A stretch of 34,778 bases of DNA from a virus. The notes beneath the pieces are model-generated. The model was not told where the DNA came from. It did not search any database and was given only the letters and a program-made list of their open reading frames with translations. Position 1 is the first letter of the stretch. The number at the start of each line of letters is the position of its first letter. A program made the translations under genes and the position numbers. This document shows positions 12,411-25,518 of the stretch, one piece after another. The stretch covers positions 1 through 34,778 of the IMG/VR virus record IMGVR_UViG_3300027747_001262, one strand, 5' to 3'.

Positions 12411-13133
12411 ATGACAACAGCTCTAGTATGCATAGCTAAGAATGAAGACCACTACATAGAGGAGTGGATATCATACAACCTAAAGCTCGGATTTGACCAC
12501 ATATTCATATATGCAAACAACTGGGAATTTGAGTACCCACATCGTCAGGTAAGCATAATCCCATACCCAGGAGAGAATAAGCAAAGAGATGCATATAGAT
12601 ACTTCCTATCTCACTACAGGAAAGCATTCACTTGGGCAGCATTCTTTGATGTAGATGAATACCTTGTCCTAAAAAAATCCCCCACCATAAGGGAGTTTCT
12701 ACAAGATTATGAAGATGCACAAGCAGTAGCCATAAATTGGGTGATGTTTGGAGATAATCAGCTCACCGAAGTAACAGACGATTACTCTTACCTAAGACGA
12801 TTCACTAAAAGACAGATAGGCGTTAATGAGCATATAAAGTGTATCCTAAACCTAACTAACAATAGCTCAAGAATGGATGTACATAACCCATACGATGTCC
12901 CTGCTACAGATACAAACGGTAATAAAGTAATAGGACCATTTAACCCAAATGGAGACGATACAATAGCTCAGTTAAACCACTACTACTCAAGGACCATAGA
13001 AGAGTTTAAAGCTAAATGCGATAGAGGCAGAGCAGATGCTCATATAAAGAACGACTACTCATTCCACGCTATACACAACCATAACGATATAGAAGACACA
13101 TTAGCTCGTGATTTCCTATATACTATACACTAA
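12411..13133 (+). CDS. GT-A glycosyltransferase (GT2/GT92-like)
   Basis: 240 aa. It begins with TALVCIAKNEDHYIEEWISY, the nucleotide-sugar strand typical of the Glyco_tranf_2_4/GT92 group, then GFDHIFIYANN and FFDVDEYL with the metal-binding D-x-D (80-82). A conserved-type HYYSRTIEEFKAK segment is near 197. Likely a cytoplasmic sugar transferase. It is the last gene of the rightward lysis-type operon. Acceptor unknown; host surface modification or virion glycosylation are both possible. Confidence 0.85.
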   Translation: MTTALVCIAKNEDHYIEEWISYNLKLGFDHIFIYANNWEFEYPHRQVSIIPYPGENKQRDAYRYFLSHYRKAFTWAAFFDVDEYLVLKKSPTIREFLQDYEDAQAVAINWVMFGDNQLTEVTDDYSYLRRFTKRQIGVNEHIKCILNLTNNSSRMDVHNPYDVPATDTNGNKVIGPFNPNGDDTIAQLNHYYSRTIEEFKAKCDRGRADAHIKNDYSFHAIHNHNDIEDTLARDFLYTIH

Positions 13134-13537
13134 GCCACTTTTATCTGTACGGTGGATACCCTGTACTCACGTATGTTTAAAGCCACATTATGAGCTCACA
13201 TTAGTCAGGTTATTAGGTGTTGTTTTATACACTAAGTGGTTATGGAGAGTGGGGGTTATACCCTATACGCAGGGGCACGGGTAACCAAAGAGAAGTCGAT
13301 TGCCCTAACCCCGCACCCCTAAAAGCCACATTGAGCAACATTGCACATACCCCTAAACCCTTGATAGCCAATGAAATAGAAGTAGATTGAAATTGGTATC
13401 CCTTATGCTTCATCCCCCAATCAGCATAGAGATTATACCTCCCTGCTCGTGGGTAGATGGATTGAGTTTTAATGTGTGTGTGGATAGAGATGAGATGGGA
13501 ATAACCCTACCCAATCTAAGCCTATCTAAGCCACGTT
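13132..13537 (+). repeat. Four iteron-like repeats AAGCCACNTT
   Basis: Copies begin at 13132, 13180, 13323 and 13528, all on the + strand, with one variable base (T, A, A, G). Near 13514-13533 ATCTAAGCC is also tandemly repeated. Repeated short sites in a noncoding region are typical of initiator or regulator binding. Confidence 0.5.
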
Positions 13538-13664
13538 ATACCTAGTATGGGCTTGTACTATCTAGCATACATTAGAGTAGATTGTAGGGCTTTAAATGAA
13601 GCCTAAAGCATTGAGTATAAATACCTATGCTTGCAGGTGTATGTGTGTGTGCTTTGTGTGTAGT

Positions 13665-13673
13665 TTATGCACA
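13665..13673 (+). promoter_or_regulatory. DnaA-box-like site
   Basis: TTATGCACA matches the relaxed DnaA box TTATNCACA. One-mismatch forms occur at 13225-13233 (TTATACACT) and 13479-13487 (reverse of CTATCCACA). All three are in the noncoding region. Confidence 0.4.
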
Positions 13674-13954
13674 TCCCCAACCTATGTTATTCCACTATGT
13701 ATTCCGTGTATCTGTCTTCTAGTATATAGGGTTTTATTATCGGTGAGCATTAGAGTATATACACTAAAATACTATGCTTATCTACTATGTTTGGGTATAT
13801 TCCAATGTTAAGAAATTGTTATCAAATTGTTAAGAGTTTAGTAAAAAACCACGTTTAAAGTATCGCTAAGCTATTCCTTTATTTTTATCCTAAATTATTA
13901 TTAGTAGCCCTATTGTGGGAGTAAAACCTTATGCCGATACTTGCATTGTTCAAT

Positions 13955-13995
13955 CACGAACAAAACCGATGCGATGTCGGTTCAGGGCTTACCCT
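13955..13995 (+). other. Two adjacent short stem-loops
   Basis: AACCGA and TCGGTT pair around a 7-base loop (about 13964-13982), and CTTAC pairs with GTAAG just after it. Both could fold in RNA ahead of the early-type genes. No tRNA or known riboswitch recognised. Confidence 0.35.
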
Positions 13996-14117
13996 TAGTA
14001 AGTGCGAAAAGAAAGCCAAGCAGAGATAAGTGAGTATGTAGGTGTTTGGTTAGTAGTGAGTAGGTAAATGTTCTTTGAGGATTCGGATAGTTAACAGGAG
14101 AGCGTAACTATAGATTA

Positions 14118-14708: not shown

Positions 14709-15617
14709 ATGAAAACTGAAAACAAAAAATTAGATGTCTACCAAATGATTACCGACAAGGTATTGAATGCTATCCAAACTAACAATTCCCTAGTATGGGT
14801 AAAGAGTTGGAGCGATGTGCAAGGTGCTTATCCCTGCAACGGAAGAACGGGAAAACGCTACAGAGGTGTTAATATGTTCCTCCTATCAATGACTGAATTT
14901 ACATCTAACTATTGGTATAGTTTCAAGCAGATTCAAGAGTTGGGAGGCACATTGAAGAAAGGCTCAACATCTACTCAAGTAGTGTTTTGGAAGATGCTAA
15001 AAACCACTGAAGTTAACAAGGATACGGGCAAGAAGGAAGAGAAGATTATACCTATGCTGAAGTATTACAATGTGTTTAACTATGAGCAAACCGAAGGTAT
15101 CAAACTCAAGGAAGTTAAATTACCTAATGAGTCAGCAAAGCCAATAGAGTTATGTGAGAATATTGTGAGTGATTATACTACACGTTGCAAACTCAAGCAA
15201 TTGGTTATCGGTGCTAGTGACCGAGCATACTACAATCCATCACGTGACCTAGTTAATATGCCAATGCTAGAGCAATTCAAAACTACTGAAGAATACTATA
15301 GCGTAATGTTCCACGAGTTGGCACATAGCACGGGACACGAGACACGGCTTAAACGCAAGGAAGTTGTGCAGGGTGGTGTATTCGGAAGTGCTGACTATGG
15401 GCTTGAGGAGTTAGTAGCAGAGTTGACTGCATCCTTTGTATCAGCAGAAGTTGGTATCAGTAACGAATCTACTGAACGCAATAGCCAAGCATATCTTAAA
15501 GGATGGTACGAGGCTATATCGGGAGACCGCAAGATGTTCATCACTGCATCAGCGAGAGCAAGTAAGTCAGCAGACCTTATCCTTAATAGATTAGAGGAAG
15601 TAACACAAGAAGATTAA
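14709..15617 (+). CDS. ArdC-like antirestriction protein with zincin domain
   Basis: 302 aa. The N-terminal domain (about 1-130) has the ArdC/DUF1738 signatures NNSLVWVKSW, CNGRTGKRYRGVN and YWYSFKQIQELGG, then KKGSTSTQVVFWK and YYNVFNYEQTEG. The C-terminal half is a zinc metallopeptidase-like domain with HELAHSTGH (202-210) and a downstream Glu in LEELVAEL (232-239) as the third ligand. ArdC proteins protect incoming DNA from restriction, binding single-stranded DNA. Position early in the rightward block fits action soon after DNA entry. Length is normal. Confidence 0.93.
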   Translation: MKTENKKLDVYQMITDKVLNAIQTNNSLVWVKSWSDVQGAYPCNGRTGKRYRGVNMFLLSMTEFTSNYWYSFKQIQELGGTLKKGSTSTQVVFWKMLKTTEVNKDTGKKEEKIIPMLKYYNVFNYEQTEGIKLKEVKLPNESAKPIELCENIVSDYTTRCKLKQLVIGASDRAYYNPSRDLVNMPMLEQFKTTEEYYSVMFHELAHSTGHETRLKRKEVVQGGVFGSADYGLEELVAELTASFVSAEVGISNESTERNSQAYLKGWYEAISGDRKMFITASARASKSADLILNRLEEVTQED

Positions 15618-19875: not shown

Positions 19876-20307
19876 TTAGTTATTATCTAATCTGCTCAGG
19901 GAAAGTCCCAAGGCTTTGGCTTCCTCAGGGTTATCCTCAACCCATCGGTGACACTTACGGCAGAGAGCCTTGAAATATCTTACATCGGTGAGCAGACTAC
20001 CAACCCTACCTTTGGCGTGGTGCAGGTCTTCAGAAAGGTTTTTACATTCGGGGTGCTCACATATCTTATGCGTATCCAAATAGCCATCCCTAACCACTCT
20101 ATACTCCTTCAATTCAGATAGCTTCTTCGTAGATACACTTTTAATGCGATATGCGGGACTTTGCTTCTTTTTGGATACCCTATATGACTTAGGCTCAGAA
20201 GATTGCTCCTGAGCCTTTATTTTAAGCCAACACTCTTTACAAGAGGGTGGATTGGATTTCCATAGATATGTTTCTTTGTTACATATGCTACAAGTCTTTA
20301 GCTTCAT
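19876..20307 (-). CDS. HNH endonuclease with N-terminal zinc ribbon (NinG/Rap-like)
   Basis: 143 aa. C6-x2-C9 and C23-x2-C26 form a likely zinc ribbon. The C-terminal half holds the HNH core: CEHPECKN, LHHAKGRVGSLLTDVRYFKA with the His-His pair, and LCRKCHRWVEDNPEEAKALG. This combination is seen in phage recombination nucleases of the NinG/Rap kind and in homing HNH proteins. The stop of the preceding gene overlaps this start, and the neighbourhood (annealing protein, exonuclease) supports a recombination role. Confidence 0.82.
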   Translation of the reverse strand: MKLKTCSICNKETYLWKSNPPSCKECWLKIKAQEQSSEPKSYRVSKKKQSPAYRIKSVSTKKLSELKEYRVVRDGYLDTHKICEHPECKNLSEDLHHAKGRVGSLLTDVRYFKALCRKCHRWVEDNPEEAKALGLSLSRLDNN

Positions 20308-20966
20308 TAGTATACTGCTAGTTCACTTAATCCAAACTTATCTCTCCTTTTCGTGATAACCTTTCTTATATCAGCCATCTTATCTTTCTTCAATCCCTCT
20401 CTCTTAATAAAGTAATCAATGAATGGTACTGTAGTTCTTACCTTGTTAGCTATGGAGAGCTGACCATAACCCTTGTTAAACATATTGGTTATCTCCTCCT
20501 TAACAGCTTCAGGAATAACAGAGTATCTAGTCTTGTGATACTCTCTATCATCCATACGTACATTCTCCCAAATCTTTTTACCTGATACAAATCTAAGGTA
20601 GTCTGCATCAGGTTCAAAGTTGGGGTTATCTACAATCTCAATAACCGTATCGTATAACTTAGAAAATACGGGTTCGTATTCGTAGAGCTCATCTGCTGTA
20701 TGTATTGCGTGACTTATACTGCTATGGTCACACTTAAAATACCAAGATGGTAATGCTAAGTTTCTGCCACAATTAAACTTACTATTAGGTATGTTATCGT
20801 ATGCATACTTGCAAGCAATCTTACGAGCATCAACAAGCTCTCTCTTACGACACTTGCTTTTCATCTCTTCGTAATCAACTGCACAAACATAAGCCACGAC
20901 ACGAGCAAGACCATCCATCGCATCACGCTCATCCTGTGTGAATCTATTCTCGTCTCTATAGTGCAT
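20307..20966 (-). CDS. DnaA domain IV-like DNA-binding protein with extra C-terminal HTH
   Basis: 219 aa. Residues about 37-95 match the DNA-binding domain IV of DnaA: KRELVDARKIACKYAYDN, then a turn, then FKCDHSSISHAIHTADEL, the equivalent of the DnaA signature (R/K)-x-D-H-(S/T)-(S/T). There is no AAA+ domain, so it cannot act as a full initiator. A second helix-turn-helix is likely at about 157-190 (EITNMFNKGYGQLSIANKVR). It would bind DnaA-box-like sites in phage or host DNA. A perfect TTATCCACA box lies 0.9 kb away at 21882. Similar stand-alone domains occur in other phages. Confidence 0.8.
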   Translation of the reverse strand: MHYRDENRFTQDERDAMDGLARVVAYVCAVDYEEMKSKCRKRELVDARKIACKYAYDNIPNSKFNCGRNLALPSWYFKCDHSSISHAIHTADELYEYEPVFSKLYDTVIEIVDNPNFEPDADYLRFVSGKKIWENVRMDDREYHKTRYSVIPEAVKEEITNMFNKGYGQLSIANKVRTTVPFIDYFIKREGLKKDKMADIRKVITKRRDKFGLSELAVY

Positions 20967-21625
20967 TACTTTACAAATTTATAAAAATCCCCAACTAATT
21001 CAATACTATTGTTCTTTACTACATCATCTAGTGTAGCACCACTTTGGAAGCTTGTGCCTTCAGGTATAGACTTGAATGCTTTCTGTTCTGCTATTAGTCC
21101 TTTAACTGTGCTCACCTTCTTAGCTTTTTGGAGAGCTGACAAAGCCTTAGCCTTTCTGTCTGCTGTATCATCAAACGATGAGCTAGGTTGCATAGGTGCA
21201 GGTGCAGGCTTAGAGTAATTGTTTGTTGCGTGTGACTGCTTGCCACGATACACATCAATACCAATACCTAAGTAACTTGCAATCTTGTTAAGGGCATCTG
21301 TAGTAGCACCCTTGAATGCATCACCCAAGTCGAAACCTTTAGAGCCTGAACCACCATTATCATTACCACCGAAGCATTCGTAGTAGATACCATACTCCTC
21401 GATGATGAGTGTAGTTTTGTTAACTACGGTTCCGTTATCATTAACTAATACGTTCTCTGTCTTAGTCTGCCACTGCCCAATACCAAACACCTCGTTCAAT
21501 CTATCTGTGATATAGATAGGCTTGATGGTGCTTAGGAATGTTTTAGTAGGATGTTGTTTAATAGCCTCAGCAGGTAGTGGAGCGTAGAGCTCTGCTTTCA
21601 ATTGTTCTTGTGTTTTCATAATCAT
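20966..21625 (-). CDS. Rad52/Rad22-family single-strand annealing protein
   Basis: 219 aa (start 21625 or, more in line with the local ATTATGAAAAC context, 21619). The N-terminal domain shows KPIYITDRLNEVFGIGQW (about 35-52), a beta hairpin ending in YYECFGG, and KGATTDALNKIASYLGIGID with DVYRGK (about 105-129), the Rad52/DdrA pattern. The C-terminal part is low-complexity Pro/Ser then helical. It would anneal complementary strands, paired with the YqaJ exonuclease located beyond the tRNAs. Confidence 0.86.
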   Translation of the reverse strand: MIMKTQEQLKAELYAPLPAEAIKQHPTKTFLSTIKPIYITDRLNEVFGIGQWQTKTENVLVNDNGTVVNKTTLIIEEYGIYYECFGGNDNGGSGSKGFDLGDAFKGATTDALNKIASYLGIGIDVYRGKQSHATNNYSKPAPAPMQPSSSFDDTADRKAKALSALQKAKKVSTVKGLIAEQKAFKSIPEGTSFQSGATLDDVVKNNSIELVGDFYKFVK

Positions 21626-21647
21626 TATTACATTTTAAAATTTAAGA

Positions 21648-21717
21648 AGAACTATAAGGATTTGAACCTTAACTAACTCCGTCAAAGGGAGTTGTGCTAC
21701 CGTTACACCATAGTTCT
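21648..21717 (-). tRNA. tRNA-Gln (anticodon UUG)
   Basis: 70 nt on the minus strand, all arms pair. Acceptor AGAACTA/TAGTTCT is 7 bp, D arm GTGT/GCAC with loop AACGGTA, anticodon stem ACTCC/GGAGT with loop CTTTGAC, and T arm TAAGG/CCTTA with loop TTCAAAT. The anticodon TTG reads CAA glutamine codons. The 3' CCA is not encoded. It lies between the annealing protein and exonuclease genes. Confidence 0.93.
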
Positions 21718-21745
21718 TTAACAAACCAACTTAACTTAACCTTTG

Positions 21746-21807
21746 AACGTGTGATGGAATCGAACCATCTGCTCACCCTTAAAGAGTACCCTACCAAGGG
21801 ACACGTT
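21746..21807 (-). tRNA. Short, degenerate tRNA-like element
   Basis: 62 nt on the minus strand. A perfect 7-bp acceptor (AACGTGT/ACACGTT) and a perfect T arm (GATGG-TTCGATT-CCATC) prove tRNA ancestry. The D arm is reduced (CCC-TTGGTA-GGG) and the anticodon arm is irregular: TACT/GGTG closes a loop CTTTAAG whose middle reads TTA (would decode UAA). A register giving TAA (Leu) pairs worse. Likely a decaying tRNA or an unusual one; a functional tRNA is uncertain. Confidence 0.45.
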
Positions 21808-21827
21808 TCCTAAACACCAAACAACCA

Positions 21828-21864
21828 TCAGGTAATCACACCTGACAATCCCTTATCGGAATTG
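21828..21864 (-). other. Two adjacent hairpins upstream of the tRNAs
   Basis: TCAGGT/ACCTGA (21828-21833 with 21840-21845) and, directly next to it, CAATCCC/GGAATTG (21846-21852 with 21858-21864). They could be processing signals, a terminator after the exonuclease gene, or the remains of another tRNA. No T-run follows. Confidence 0.4.
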
Positions 21865-21881
21865 TTCCACAAACCTAAACA

Positions 21882-21890
21882 TTATCCACA
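21882..21890 (+). promoter_or_regulatory. Perfect DnaA box
   Basis: TTATCCACA, identical to the bacterial DnaA box consensus, in the gap between the exonuclease gene and the tRNA-like element. A weaker TGTTCCACA is at about 21864-21872. Meaningful because a DnaA domain IV-like protein is encoded nearby. Confidence 0.5.
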
Positions 21891-21912
21891 ACAAATCCAA
21901 ATTTATTTTAAA

Positions 21913-22956
21913 TTATTTATCAAATAGTTTAAGGTTAAAATAATCTCGTTTACCATCAGCTCTACGCCATACAACTTTGCCTCCTTCGAAGAGCATCTCT
22001 TCTGCGTCCTTCATAAGGGTCGTAATCTTATTCTTATTAAGCTGTTTAAGCTCCTCTAAGCCCTTAATTTTATCGTGGGCGTCTTGGTAGTCCAATAGAA
22101 ATTTAAAGTCGCTCTCAGAGCCTTTAATTGAGCCGTTAGATTCAGAGAATAACTCCTTGTTTAGGGACTGCTCATCGTCTAATTCTGTAGCATCAGGAGT
22201 GATGTCCTCAAGCATAGCCTGATACTCTTCCTTCTCGCTTGTAGACTTAGCTGAATTGATTAGGTCTACTATCTGTTTACCTGCTATACATAGTTGAGCA
22301 AACTGTCTTGTCTCGTGGTCTATGAATTGGGAGAGAACCTTATCGAACTCTACCTCACGGGTATGGAAGTACACACCATTCACCAATACGTTGAACACTG
22401 CAACCTCAGTTCCTGTCACCATCATCTGAGACATCACCTGCTCCTTGTATGGTTGAGTGATACCATCTTCCCATAGCTTATAGTAATCTCTCTCAGTAGT
22501 CTTTAGCTCTATTGGGGTGAGCTCTGCATACTCCTGACCCGTGAACGGACTGAATGTCTGACCATCGTGCAGTCTATCAACCGACACAAATAACTGTGGG
22601 TATTCATCGTTTAGTAAGAAGAAGTCTGCCTTCTTAGTTTTGCGTAGCTTAACACCACGCTCAAGGTTGAACAAGAACTCTTCTTCTTTGGGTGTCCAAC
22701 TCTCCCAATTAGAAGCTACTACATTCTCTAATAGATGTCCTCCTACTGACTTAGCTGTTCTCCATTCGCTTGAGTACATACCAATCAGGTGGTAGAATAA
22801 TCTACGCTTGCACTTCCACTTGTTAGAACCTGTTACGGTTCCGATGTCAGATGCACCGATGCGTGTAATCTCTAATGAGCCTAAGCCTTCTACGGCTTTA
22901 CGTTGAGCTAACCATTGTTCGTGGGAATCACCTAACCATTGTATTTTTTCTATCAT
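21913..22956 (-). CDS. YqaJ-family (lambda Exo-like) 5'-3' exonuclease
   Basis: 347 aa. IGASDIGTVTGSNKW (33-47) is the family opening. Active-site residues of the PD-(D/E)XK core follow: E77 in GGHLLE, D127 in SVDRLH, E150 and K152 in IELKTT, and Q173/Q177 in YKEQVMSQM. It would resect double-stranded ends to feed the Rad52-like protein. A C-terminal helical extension (about 240-320) is longer than in lambda Exo (226 aa). Overlaps the next upstream gene as ATGA. Confidence 0.93.
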   Translation of the reverse strand: MIEKIQWLGDSHEQWLAQRKAVEGLGSLEITRIGASDIGTVTGSNKWKCKRRLFYHLIGMYSSEWRTAKSVGGHLLENVVASNWESWTPKEEEFLFNLERGVKLRKTKKADFFLLNDEYPQLFVSVDRLHDGQTFSPFTGQEYAELTPIELKTTERDYYKLWEDGITQPYKEQVMSQMMVTGTEVAVFNVLVNGVYFHTREVEFDKVLSQFIDHETRQFAQLCIAGKQIVDLINSAKSTSEKEEYQAMLEDITPDATELDDEQSLNKELFSESNGSIKGSESDFKFLLDYQDAHDKIKGLEELKQLNKNKITTLMKDAEEMLFEGGKVVWRRADGKRDYFNLKLFDK

Positions 22957-23293: not shown

Positions 23294-24346
23294 TTAAAAA
23301 ATATCTATTTTTTCGTCTTTTGATTTAAGTGGCTCATCCCAATGAACCGATGGTGTAAGGCTTGTGTTCTTACCTCCCGACATCTGATGGTATAGGTCTG
23401 TACCGAATGCTCCACATCTGTACTTCTTATCTCCGAATGTTTCGTAGAGCGTATGTGTATCTGTATCATAGAATACTTGGAACATACCAAGTCTACCTAC
23501 ACCGAATGGCTTTGTCTTCTGCACTAACACTTGCATACAATTCTCAAGGTACGGGAAGCCATCTCTCTTAAGGATTCCGTATGGCTCCCTGAATAAACCA
23601 ATCATCTGAAAGCCTGCTCTCCAAAAACTCTGACCACCTGCAAGCTTACTAGGGTGAGGCTTAGGCATATACTCTATACCCGTATCTTTATCTACTATAA
23701 GCTCTTCCCCTGCAAGGTGAGCTACTAATATTGTGTGTAGCTCCATCTTTTTAGAGGCTGCATTGATGAAGCTTAGTGTACTTAGTACATAGTCTTGGAT
23801 AGCCTTTCTGTCATCGTCTAACTCTCTGTCTAACAAGTTGAATGGGTCTACGCACAGCACATCTACTTTCTTACCATAATCCTTCTCAGCTAAGTGTACC
23901 TGATTGAATATATCCCTAACAGTAAATCTTTCCAATACACCCTTAGCGAATGGGTTGTGCTCTAGCACAATAAAGTGTTTATCTATAAACTCAATAGCCT
24001 TATCAATCTCTTGCGTAGTAATCTTATGGGCTCCCTTTCCGTATAGTCTCTTGCCTGTGTATACCTGTATCAAGTTCCACACAACTTCCTTTTTACCTCC
24101 TGTCTCAGGTGAGTACACGCATATGGTGAGCCCTTCATTTTTGGCTAAGTGAATCAGAGACTCTGTCACCCAAACGGTTTTACCTTGATGTGGATGCGAG
24201 TACACGTATGATGTGAAGCCTTTCTTGAAGCTGATGAAGTCATCGCCACAAGACCAACCGCAGGACCAACCCTTTTCAAATGTTTCATTCTGTGATGCGT
24301 AAACATCATCCTTAAACTCATTGGCTCTGAAGTATTTTTTAGTCAC
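23294..24346 (-). CDS. DnaB/RecA-like replicative ATPase (helicase)
   Basis: 350 aa, RecA-type core without a DnaB N-terminal domain. SHPHQGKT (50-57) is the Walker A; its first position is Ser rather than the usual Gly. SPETGGKKE (79-87) takes the place of motif H1a with E81, VDVLCVDPFN (161-170) is Walker B, TILVAHLAG (205-213) and KLAGGQSFWRAGFQMIGLFR (234-253) match DnaB motifs H3 and H4. It starts with GTG fused to the preceding TAG. Likely a hexameric helicase; a RecA-type recombinase is less likely. Confidence 0.84.
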   Translation of the reverse strand: MTKKYFRANEFKDDVYASQNETFEKGWSCGWSCGDDFISFKKGFTSYVYSHPHQGKTVWVTESLIHLAKNEGLTICVYSPETGGKKEVVWNLIQVYTGKRLYGKGAHKITTQEIDKAIEFIDKHFIVLEHNPFAKGVLERFTVRDIFNQVHLAEKDYGKKVDVLCVDPFNLLDRELDDDRKAIQDYVLSTLSFINAASKKMELHTILVAHLAGEELIVDKDTGIEYMPKPHPSKLAGGQSFWRAGFQMIGLFREPYGILKRDGFPYLENCMQVLVQKTKPFGVGRLGMFQVFYDTDTHTLYETFGDKKYRCGAFGTDLYHQMSGGKNTSLTPSVHWDEPLKSKDEKIDIF

Positions 24347-25017: not shown

Positions 25018-25518
25018 TTAAATAGGTTTATAGTATTGGTTTGTTTTAATTCCTTCCTTCTCCTCGTTCTTCATAATCAACTGAACATTAAATATGATGG
25101 CAGATAGATGGTCCTCATCCTGCTCAACTTCGTTGTATAAGTTCATCTCAAACTTAGCAAGGTGTCTATGCAAGCTCTCCAATGCAGTCTCTGTAGGTTG
25201 ACCCTTTCTCCAATTAGCCTTGTCATAGTGATTGGCTCCGTGTCTTAATAGATACCCATAACGCATACGAACATATGCATCTAGGTGATTAGGTAATGGC
25301 TTGTTAGTATCGTCATCACGCTGAGAGCCTGACTCAAATACTCTGTTCTTTTTAGATGGCTCCTGCTCTACACCTCCTAGTGATTCTTGAAACTCTAACT
25401 GAATATCATCTTGAGTTTCAATCCTATCATTAAACTCTTGTGTAGGGTTCTTACCCCAAAACTTAGCAAGCCTTTCTTTGTCCCAATAGGTACTGTTTCT
25501 TTCTTCTTGTTCTTTCAT
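25018..25518 (-). CDS. DUF5664-family dATP/dGTP diphosphohydrolase-like protein
   Basis: 166 aa. The C-terminal part (about 82-150) has the family pattern: MRYGYLLRHGANHYDKANWR, KGQPTETALESLHRHLAKFE and EDHLSAIIFNVQLIM, i.e. Y-G-x-x-K/N-Y-x-x-x-N-W-R-K-G then R-H-x-x-x-F/W and D-x-D/E-H-L-A. Relatives are MazG-like nucleotide pyrophosphohydrolases that use divalent metals. The N-terminal 80 residues are variable and acidic. It would adjust nucleotide pools during phage replication. Confidence 0.8.
   Translation of the reverse strand: MKEQEERNSTYWDKERLAKFWGKNPTQEFNDRIETQDDIQLEFQESLGGVEQEPSKKNRVFESGSQRDDDTNKPLPNHLDAYVRMRYGYLLRHGANHYDKANWRKGQPTETALESLHRHLAKFEMNLYNEVEQDEDHLSAIIFNVQLIMKNEEKEGIKTNQYYKPI

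Follow-up and report, generated by a model that had tools for sequence, protein, structure and literature searches.

A stand-alone DnaA domain IV-like protein encoded in a phage replication-recombination operon, a possible initiator of phage DNA replication

Introduction

Annotations of stand-alone DnaA-C proteins already exist for many phages. Such proteins are widespread among phages of marine and gut origin and among those of Flavobacteriia, under the name 'DnaA' or 'replication initiation protein'. The DnaA-C gene of Polaribacter P12002L was named replication initiation protein DnaA by the authors (PMC4615864) and lies two genes before that of a primosomal protein, the DnaA-C gene of ctOK67 directly precedes a replisome organiser, and Pelagibacter phage HTVC204P shows the order nuclease, annealing protein, small genes, DnaA. 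No experimental study of a phage DnaA-C protein was found in the literature searched. In lambda, DnaA of the host binds to boxes near pO (PMC3985674).

The protein described here joins this known kind. It is encoded by a 34,778-base virus record (the window, i.e., the whole stretch of DNA analysed). A Foldseek comparison with viral models returned 315 matches (E up to 10); among the 50 matches listed, almost every named one is a phage protein labelled 'Chromosomal replication initiator, DnaA C-terminal', with Tenacibaculum, Nonlabens, and Flavobacterium phages represented. A tblastn search with Aquifex domain IV yielded 45 phage-collection records, some of which (e.g., Salmonella and Staphylococcus records) are probably mis-filed bacterial DNA, and a tblastn search of the named phage collection with the full-length window protein gave no match.

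Gene and operon context

The open reading frame at 20307-20966 (minus strand) was confirmed, and its product is a protein of 219 amino acids (P0001), referred to below as the DnaA-IV protein. The gene and its neighbours are:

19876 to 20307, minus strand: HNH endonuclease (phrog_740/15522/14515)
20307 to 20966, minus strand: stand-alone DnaA domain IV-like DNA-binding protein P0001 (Bac_DnaA_C 4.8e-6; TIGR00362 4.6e-6)
20966 to 21625, minus strand: Rad52/Erf-type single-strand annealing protein (Rad52_Rad22 9.3e-8; Erf phrog_1097)
21646 to 21717, minus strand: tRNA-Gln(ttg) (ARAGORN; Rfam RF00005, 65.3 bits)
21913 to 22956, minus strand: YqaJ/RecE-like exonuclease (YqaJ 1e-10; phrog_434 1.3e-38)
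23294 to 24346, minus strand: helicase/primase-like protein (phrog_239 DNA primase/helicase, 5.6e-17)

The start of the DnaA-IV gene overlaps the annealing-protein gene by one base and its end overlaps the HNH endonuclease gene by one base, and the exonuclease and helicase/primase-like genes lie upstream. The order is exonuclease, annealing protein, DnaA-IV, HNH, adjoining the helicase/primase-like gene; the DnaA-IV gene lies within a replication/recombination operon, as a lambda O-type gene would. Profile scans of viral_contigs gave three relatives in all and those of genome_contigs none, and the family comprises four members, those of the window, L001, L002, and L004. All four come from metagenomic contigs, which are possibly fragments; the three contigs other than the window have lengths of 4.5, 19.5, and 27 kb. 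The relatives keep the operon gene order as far as their contigs reach, with the exception of L002 and L004, which carry extra genes before HNH. In L004, an open reading frame at 2067-2843, between DnaA-IV and HNH, resembles cytosine-5 DNA methyltransferase (GGFPCQPYS motif), and the junction holds different inserts in other phages, as in L002 (6663-7422). The DnaA-IV/HNH junction is a gene-exchange spot.

Other features of the window include an ArdC-type anti-restriction protein (ArdcN plus zincin-like metallopeptidase; 14709-15617, plus strand) and, at 25018-25518 (minus strand), a sequence that matches the dATP/dGTP diphosphohydrolase N-terminal domain. At about 21740-21812 (minus strand) lies a tRNA-like structure for which ARAGORN and Rfam make no call; it has an acceptor-like stem and a T-arm, with paired changes across three phages, and an abnormal anticodon arm.

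A DnaA domain IV without an ATPase

The preliminary description had recognised a DnaA signature region in the 219-aa protein and no ATPase, and had suggested structure prediction against DnaA domain IV; profiles and fold now bear this out. Pfam Bac_DnaA_C (PF08299) matches residues 21-89 (E 4.8e-6) at 26.9 bits, below the Pfam gathering cut-off of 31.5 for this profile. The match is considered firm because the three relatives each match Bac_DnaA_C and NCBIfam DnaA independently: Bac_DnaA_C matches all four members, each separately (best 2.4e-7), and TIGR00362 (DnaA domain IV) does the same (best 8.1e-8; window protein 4.6e-6).

20619 to 20924, minus strand: residues 15-116, with the fold of DnaA domain IV (VIA-align Z of 13.3 against 3pvp_B and 12.7 against 1j1v_A)

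The fold was assigned from an AF2 model built on the four-sequence alignment, in which the domain IV region has a pLDDT of about 50-83 by blocks (a model from the single sequence, with a mean pLDDT of 39, was unusable). Both 1j1v and 3pvp are structures of DnaA domain IV in complex with DnaA-box DNA, and the model superimposes on them with an rmsd of 1.7 across 93-95 residues. DnaA takes Foldseek ranks 1-9 and VIA ranks 1-6, and unrelated entries reach a Z of 4.2 or less. By profile matches and predicted structure, the first ~115 residues of the protein are a DnaA domain IV. An AAA+ ATPase (domain III) gave no match in the 219-aa protein, profile searches matching domain IV alone; with 219 aa and no AAA+ domain III, a full-length DnaA initiator is ruled out.

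20310 to 20609, minus strand: C-terminal region, residues 120-219, a possible second DNA-binding domain

The second helix-turn-helix of the preliminary description is not established in this region: a Pfam search with residues 121-219 gave no credible match, the AF2 pLDDT for residues 120-219 is mostly 31-51, and the VIA fold comparison of this low-confidence model gave no match above background.

Divergence of the recognition helix

20682 to 20729, minus strand: residues 80-95 (DHSSISHAIHTADELY), the recognition helix, corresponding to D433-H439 in E. coli (HMMER alignment to 1j1v)

In E. coli DnaA, the residues that we take to contact the DnaA box are R399, D433, H434, T435, T436, and H439. 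Upon alignment to 1j1v, R40 and D80-H81 are invariant across the four family proteins. The window and L004 proteins have S82, S83, and H86 (D-H-S-S...H), whereas L001 and L002 have G82, T83, and Y86 (D-H-G-T...Y), their helix reading DHGTIHYTI; at the equivalents of T435 and H439, the L002 protein thus carries G and Y. The DnaA-IV proteins of the three relatives are 60-63% identical to that of the window, compared with 87-92% for the product of the neighbouring gene, and between L001 and L004 the helix-turn-helix is 35% identical and the annealing protein 82%. A pN/pS of about 0.2-0.55 places the DnaA-IV gene under purifying selection, although it evolves much faster than the neighbouring gene; an out-of-frame dN/dS comparison of the annealing protein with L001 was set aside. 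Such divergence under purifying selection is expected of an initiator that changes its specificity, and it is also compatible with a repressor.

Proposed role in phage replication

We propose, at about even chances, that the protein serves the phage as a replication initiator or replisome organiser that uses DnaA domain IV, minus the ATPase, as its DNA-binding module. Most likely it would start or control replication of the phage DNA itself and not mark a host-type DnaA origin. The proposal is supported by the profile matches and the fold, by the order of the operon genes and its retention in the relatives, by the rapid evolution under purifying selection, and by the independent phages HTVC204P, P12002L, and ctOK67, which keep DnaA-C in a replication setting. 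DNA binding, a target site, recruitment, and initiation are steps that we infer: made from the recombination-replication operon, the protein would bind a phage site through the helix-turn-helix and basic loop of domain IV; the target is probably not TTATNCACA in all members; other residues of the protein would bring the phage helicase/primase or the host replisome to the site; and opening and helicase loading would be carried out by other phage or host proteins. On the best reading, such an initiator would bind the origin with a specificity of its own, and a changing one. Iterons were sought in and near the gene, and a repeat search of 19.5-24.8 kb gave just two- or three-copy, chance-like families, none of them convincing.

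A probable promoter around the DnaA box and the possible readers of the box

21870 to 21901, minus strand: probable Bacteroidota-type promoter TTTG-N20-TAGGTTTG with a DnaA box in the spacer, directed toward tRNA-Gln, annealing protein, DnaA-IV, and HNH (motif scan)
21882 to 21890, plus strand: perfect DnaA box TTATCCACA, which reads TGTGGATAA in the orientation of the genes and is conserved at 5048-5056 of L002 and 438-446 of L004

The position and orientation of the 21882 box are conserved in these two other phages. In the gap alignment of the three phages whose contigs make this site readable, TTGTGGATAATG is invariant inside a block that is conserved throughout, and the box is not more conserved than the rest of this promoter block. 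TTTG is the -33 element of Bacteroidota promoters. A -7 consensus TAnnTTTG has been reported for Flavobacterium (PMC9723704). The window contains 13 TTTG-N20-TAnnTTTG motifs against 2.12 expected, a number equalled by none of 100 shuffles, and 5 of the 13 are wholly intergenic. A promoter-like motif occupies the corresponding place in L002 and L004, with the box within the spacer in all three phages. As the motif fits the Bacteroidota consensus, is enriched, and holds the box in its spacer in 3/3 phages, the primary role of the conserved block is probably that of a promoter driving the tRNAs together with the genes for the annealing protein, the DnaA-IV protein, and HNH.

If the DnaA-IV protein itself reads the box, it might be a transcriptional regulator that binds the 21870-21901 promoter and represses or tunes expression of the tRNA, the annealing protein, and DnaA-IV. 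The conservation of the box within the promoter-like spacer in three phages and the DnaA-type contact pattern of the window and L004 proteins are consistent with this role, which is nevertheless unlikely: the box of L002 is perfect although in the L002 protein G replaces T435 and Y replaces H439, and box conservation is no greater than that of the remaining promoter block. The specificity of the DnaA-IV protein seems, from these comparisons, to change while the box stays constant. Because L002 keeps a perfect box but has lost the DnaA-type contact residues, host DnaA, or RNA polymerase alone (plain promoter conservation), is a likelier reader than the phage protein, for L002 at least.

Should host DnaA read the box, the operon promoter might respond to the host DnaA-ATP level, with the phage DnaA-IV protein possibly competing. 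A perfect consensus box that is invariant in three phages with differing DnaA-IV proteins suggests such a response, but the box is single, its conservation is possibly due to the promoter, and the genome is not box-enriched; this account is less probable again than self-regulation. An improbable combination of the two would be a promoter built around the DnaA box, for which host DnaA and the phage DnaA-IV protein compete; if true, the replication operon would be coupled to the host replication clock and switched off by a DnaA mimic. The least probable role is that of a host-takeover factor competing with host DnaA at oriC to block chromosome initiation, for although the window and L004 proteins keep the box-contact residues and a domain IV without an ATPase would be expected to be a dominant competitor, L001 and L002 have lost these residues and the gene lies in a replication operon, not with host-takeover genes.

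DnaA boxes and the 13.1-kb region

Both perfect boxes reported in the preliminary description, that in the 21882 gap (TTATCCACA, 21882-21890) and that at 13665 (TTATGCACA, 13665-13673), are present, though their count is at chance level, with 2 perfect TTATNCACA boxes in the 34.8-kb window against 2.43 expected and thus no enrichment. The 13,665 box sits in a noncoding kilobase, where near-boxes (13.1-14.1 kb) number 5 against 1.6 expected, an excess reached by 3 of 300 shuffles in a post hoc test. In the homologous contig G001, a perfect box is absent throughout and the region aligned to 13.1-14.1 kb holds a single near-box. Three named phages that encode a DnaA-C protein contain 0, 2, and 0 boxes genome-wide, and therefore phage DnaA-C proteins do not, as a rule, travel with TTATNCACA. 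An oriC-like DnaA-box cluster was not found, and a phage oriC marked by TTATNCACA was rejected: boxes are not enriched, the near-box cluster is not kept in G001, the 13.7-kb box is unconserved, and the named phages have few or no boxes. As judged from these counts, a DnaA-type origin finds no support in the boxes, and marking of the phage origin through them, with the 13.7-kb box not kept in relatives, is the weakest of the three roles suggested in the preliminary description.

The same region harbours a repeat. The direct repeat CTTAGTGTA (TACACTAAG on the plus strand) occurs twice with a spacing of exactly 102 bp at 13124-13236 (noncoding, 13134-14117). The 102-bp-spaced pair is also found in two related phages (L010, 1209/1311; L012, 1364/1466), with TTTAAAnnTACGTGAGTACA between the copies in each case, and TACACTAA occurs 10 times in the window against 2.85 expected. 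For this phage group, the repeat region is a candidate for the origin or for a control region. As a widespread element, the TACACTAAG pair was rejected: a collection scan gave 33 contigs, the true element being confined to the window, G001, and G002, and the remaining contigs belong to other groups of phages, hold short tandem arrays, or match by chance. In an unrelated phage group (L020, L023, L025, L026, L033, L035, L036, L039, and L044), a 113-bp noncoding element has CACTTAGTGTA at both ends.

Comparison with known systems

The window protein resembles DnaA domain IV of E. coli (1j1v) and M. tuberculosis (3pvp) in its fold over about 95 residues and, in the window and L004 proteins, in the basic arginine and the DH[ST][ST]..H recognition pattern; in contrast to these DnaA proteins, it lacks domains I-III, and the contact residues are not kept in L001 and L002. 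With Polaribacter P12002L gp46, Nonlabens P12024L, Tenacibaculum Gundel_1, and HTVC204P gp23 it shares a DnaA domain IV without AAA+ in a phage genome and, where looked at, a common replication neighbourhood. It differs from the known phage DnaA-C proteins in sequence (identity mostly 11-25% in structural matches) and in its 100-residue C-terminal extension. The two natural types of recognition helix in close relatives, together with the conserved promoter box, make the binding target directly testable.

The proposed initiator is similar to lambda O and phage replisome organisers in its place in a replication-recombination operon and in its suggested role. However, lambda O brings in the replication machinery via a different DNA-binding fold, and the DnaA-IV gene is one without iterons found. 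The DnaA box near a phage replication promoter is reminiscent of lambda pO with its DnaA boxes (PMC3985674), but the present phage differs in having the box within the promoter spacer and in encoding a DnaA-IV protein of its own.
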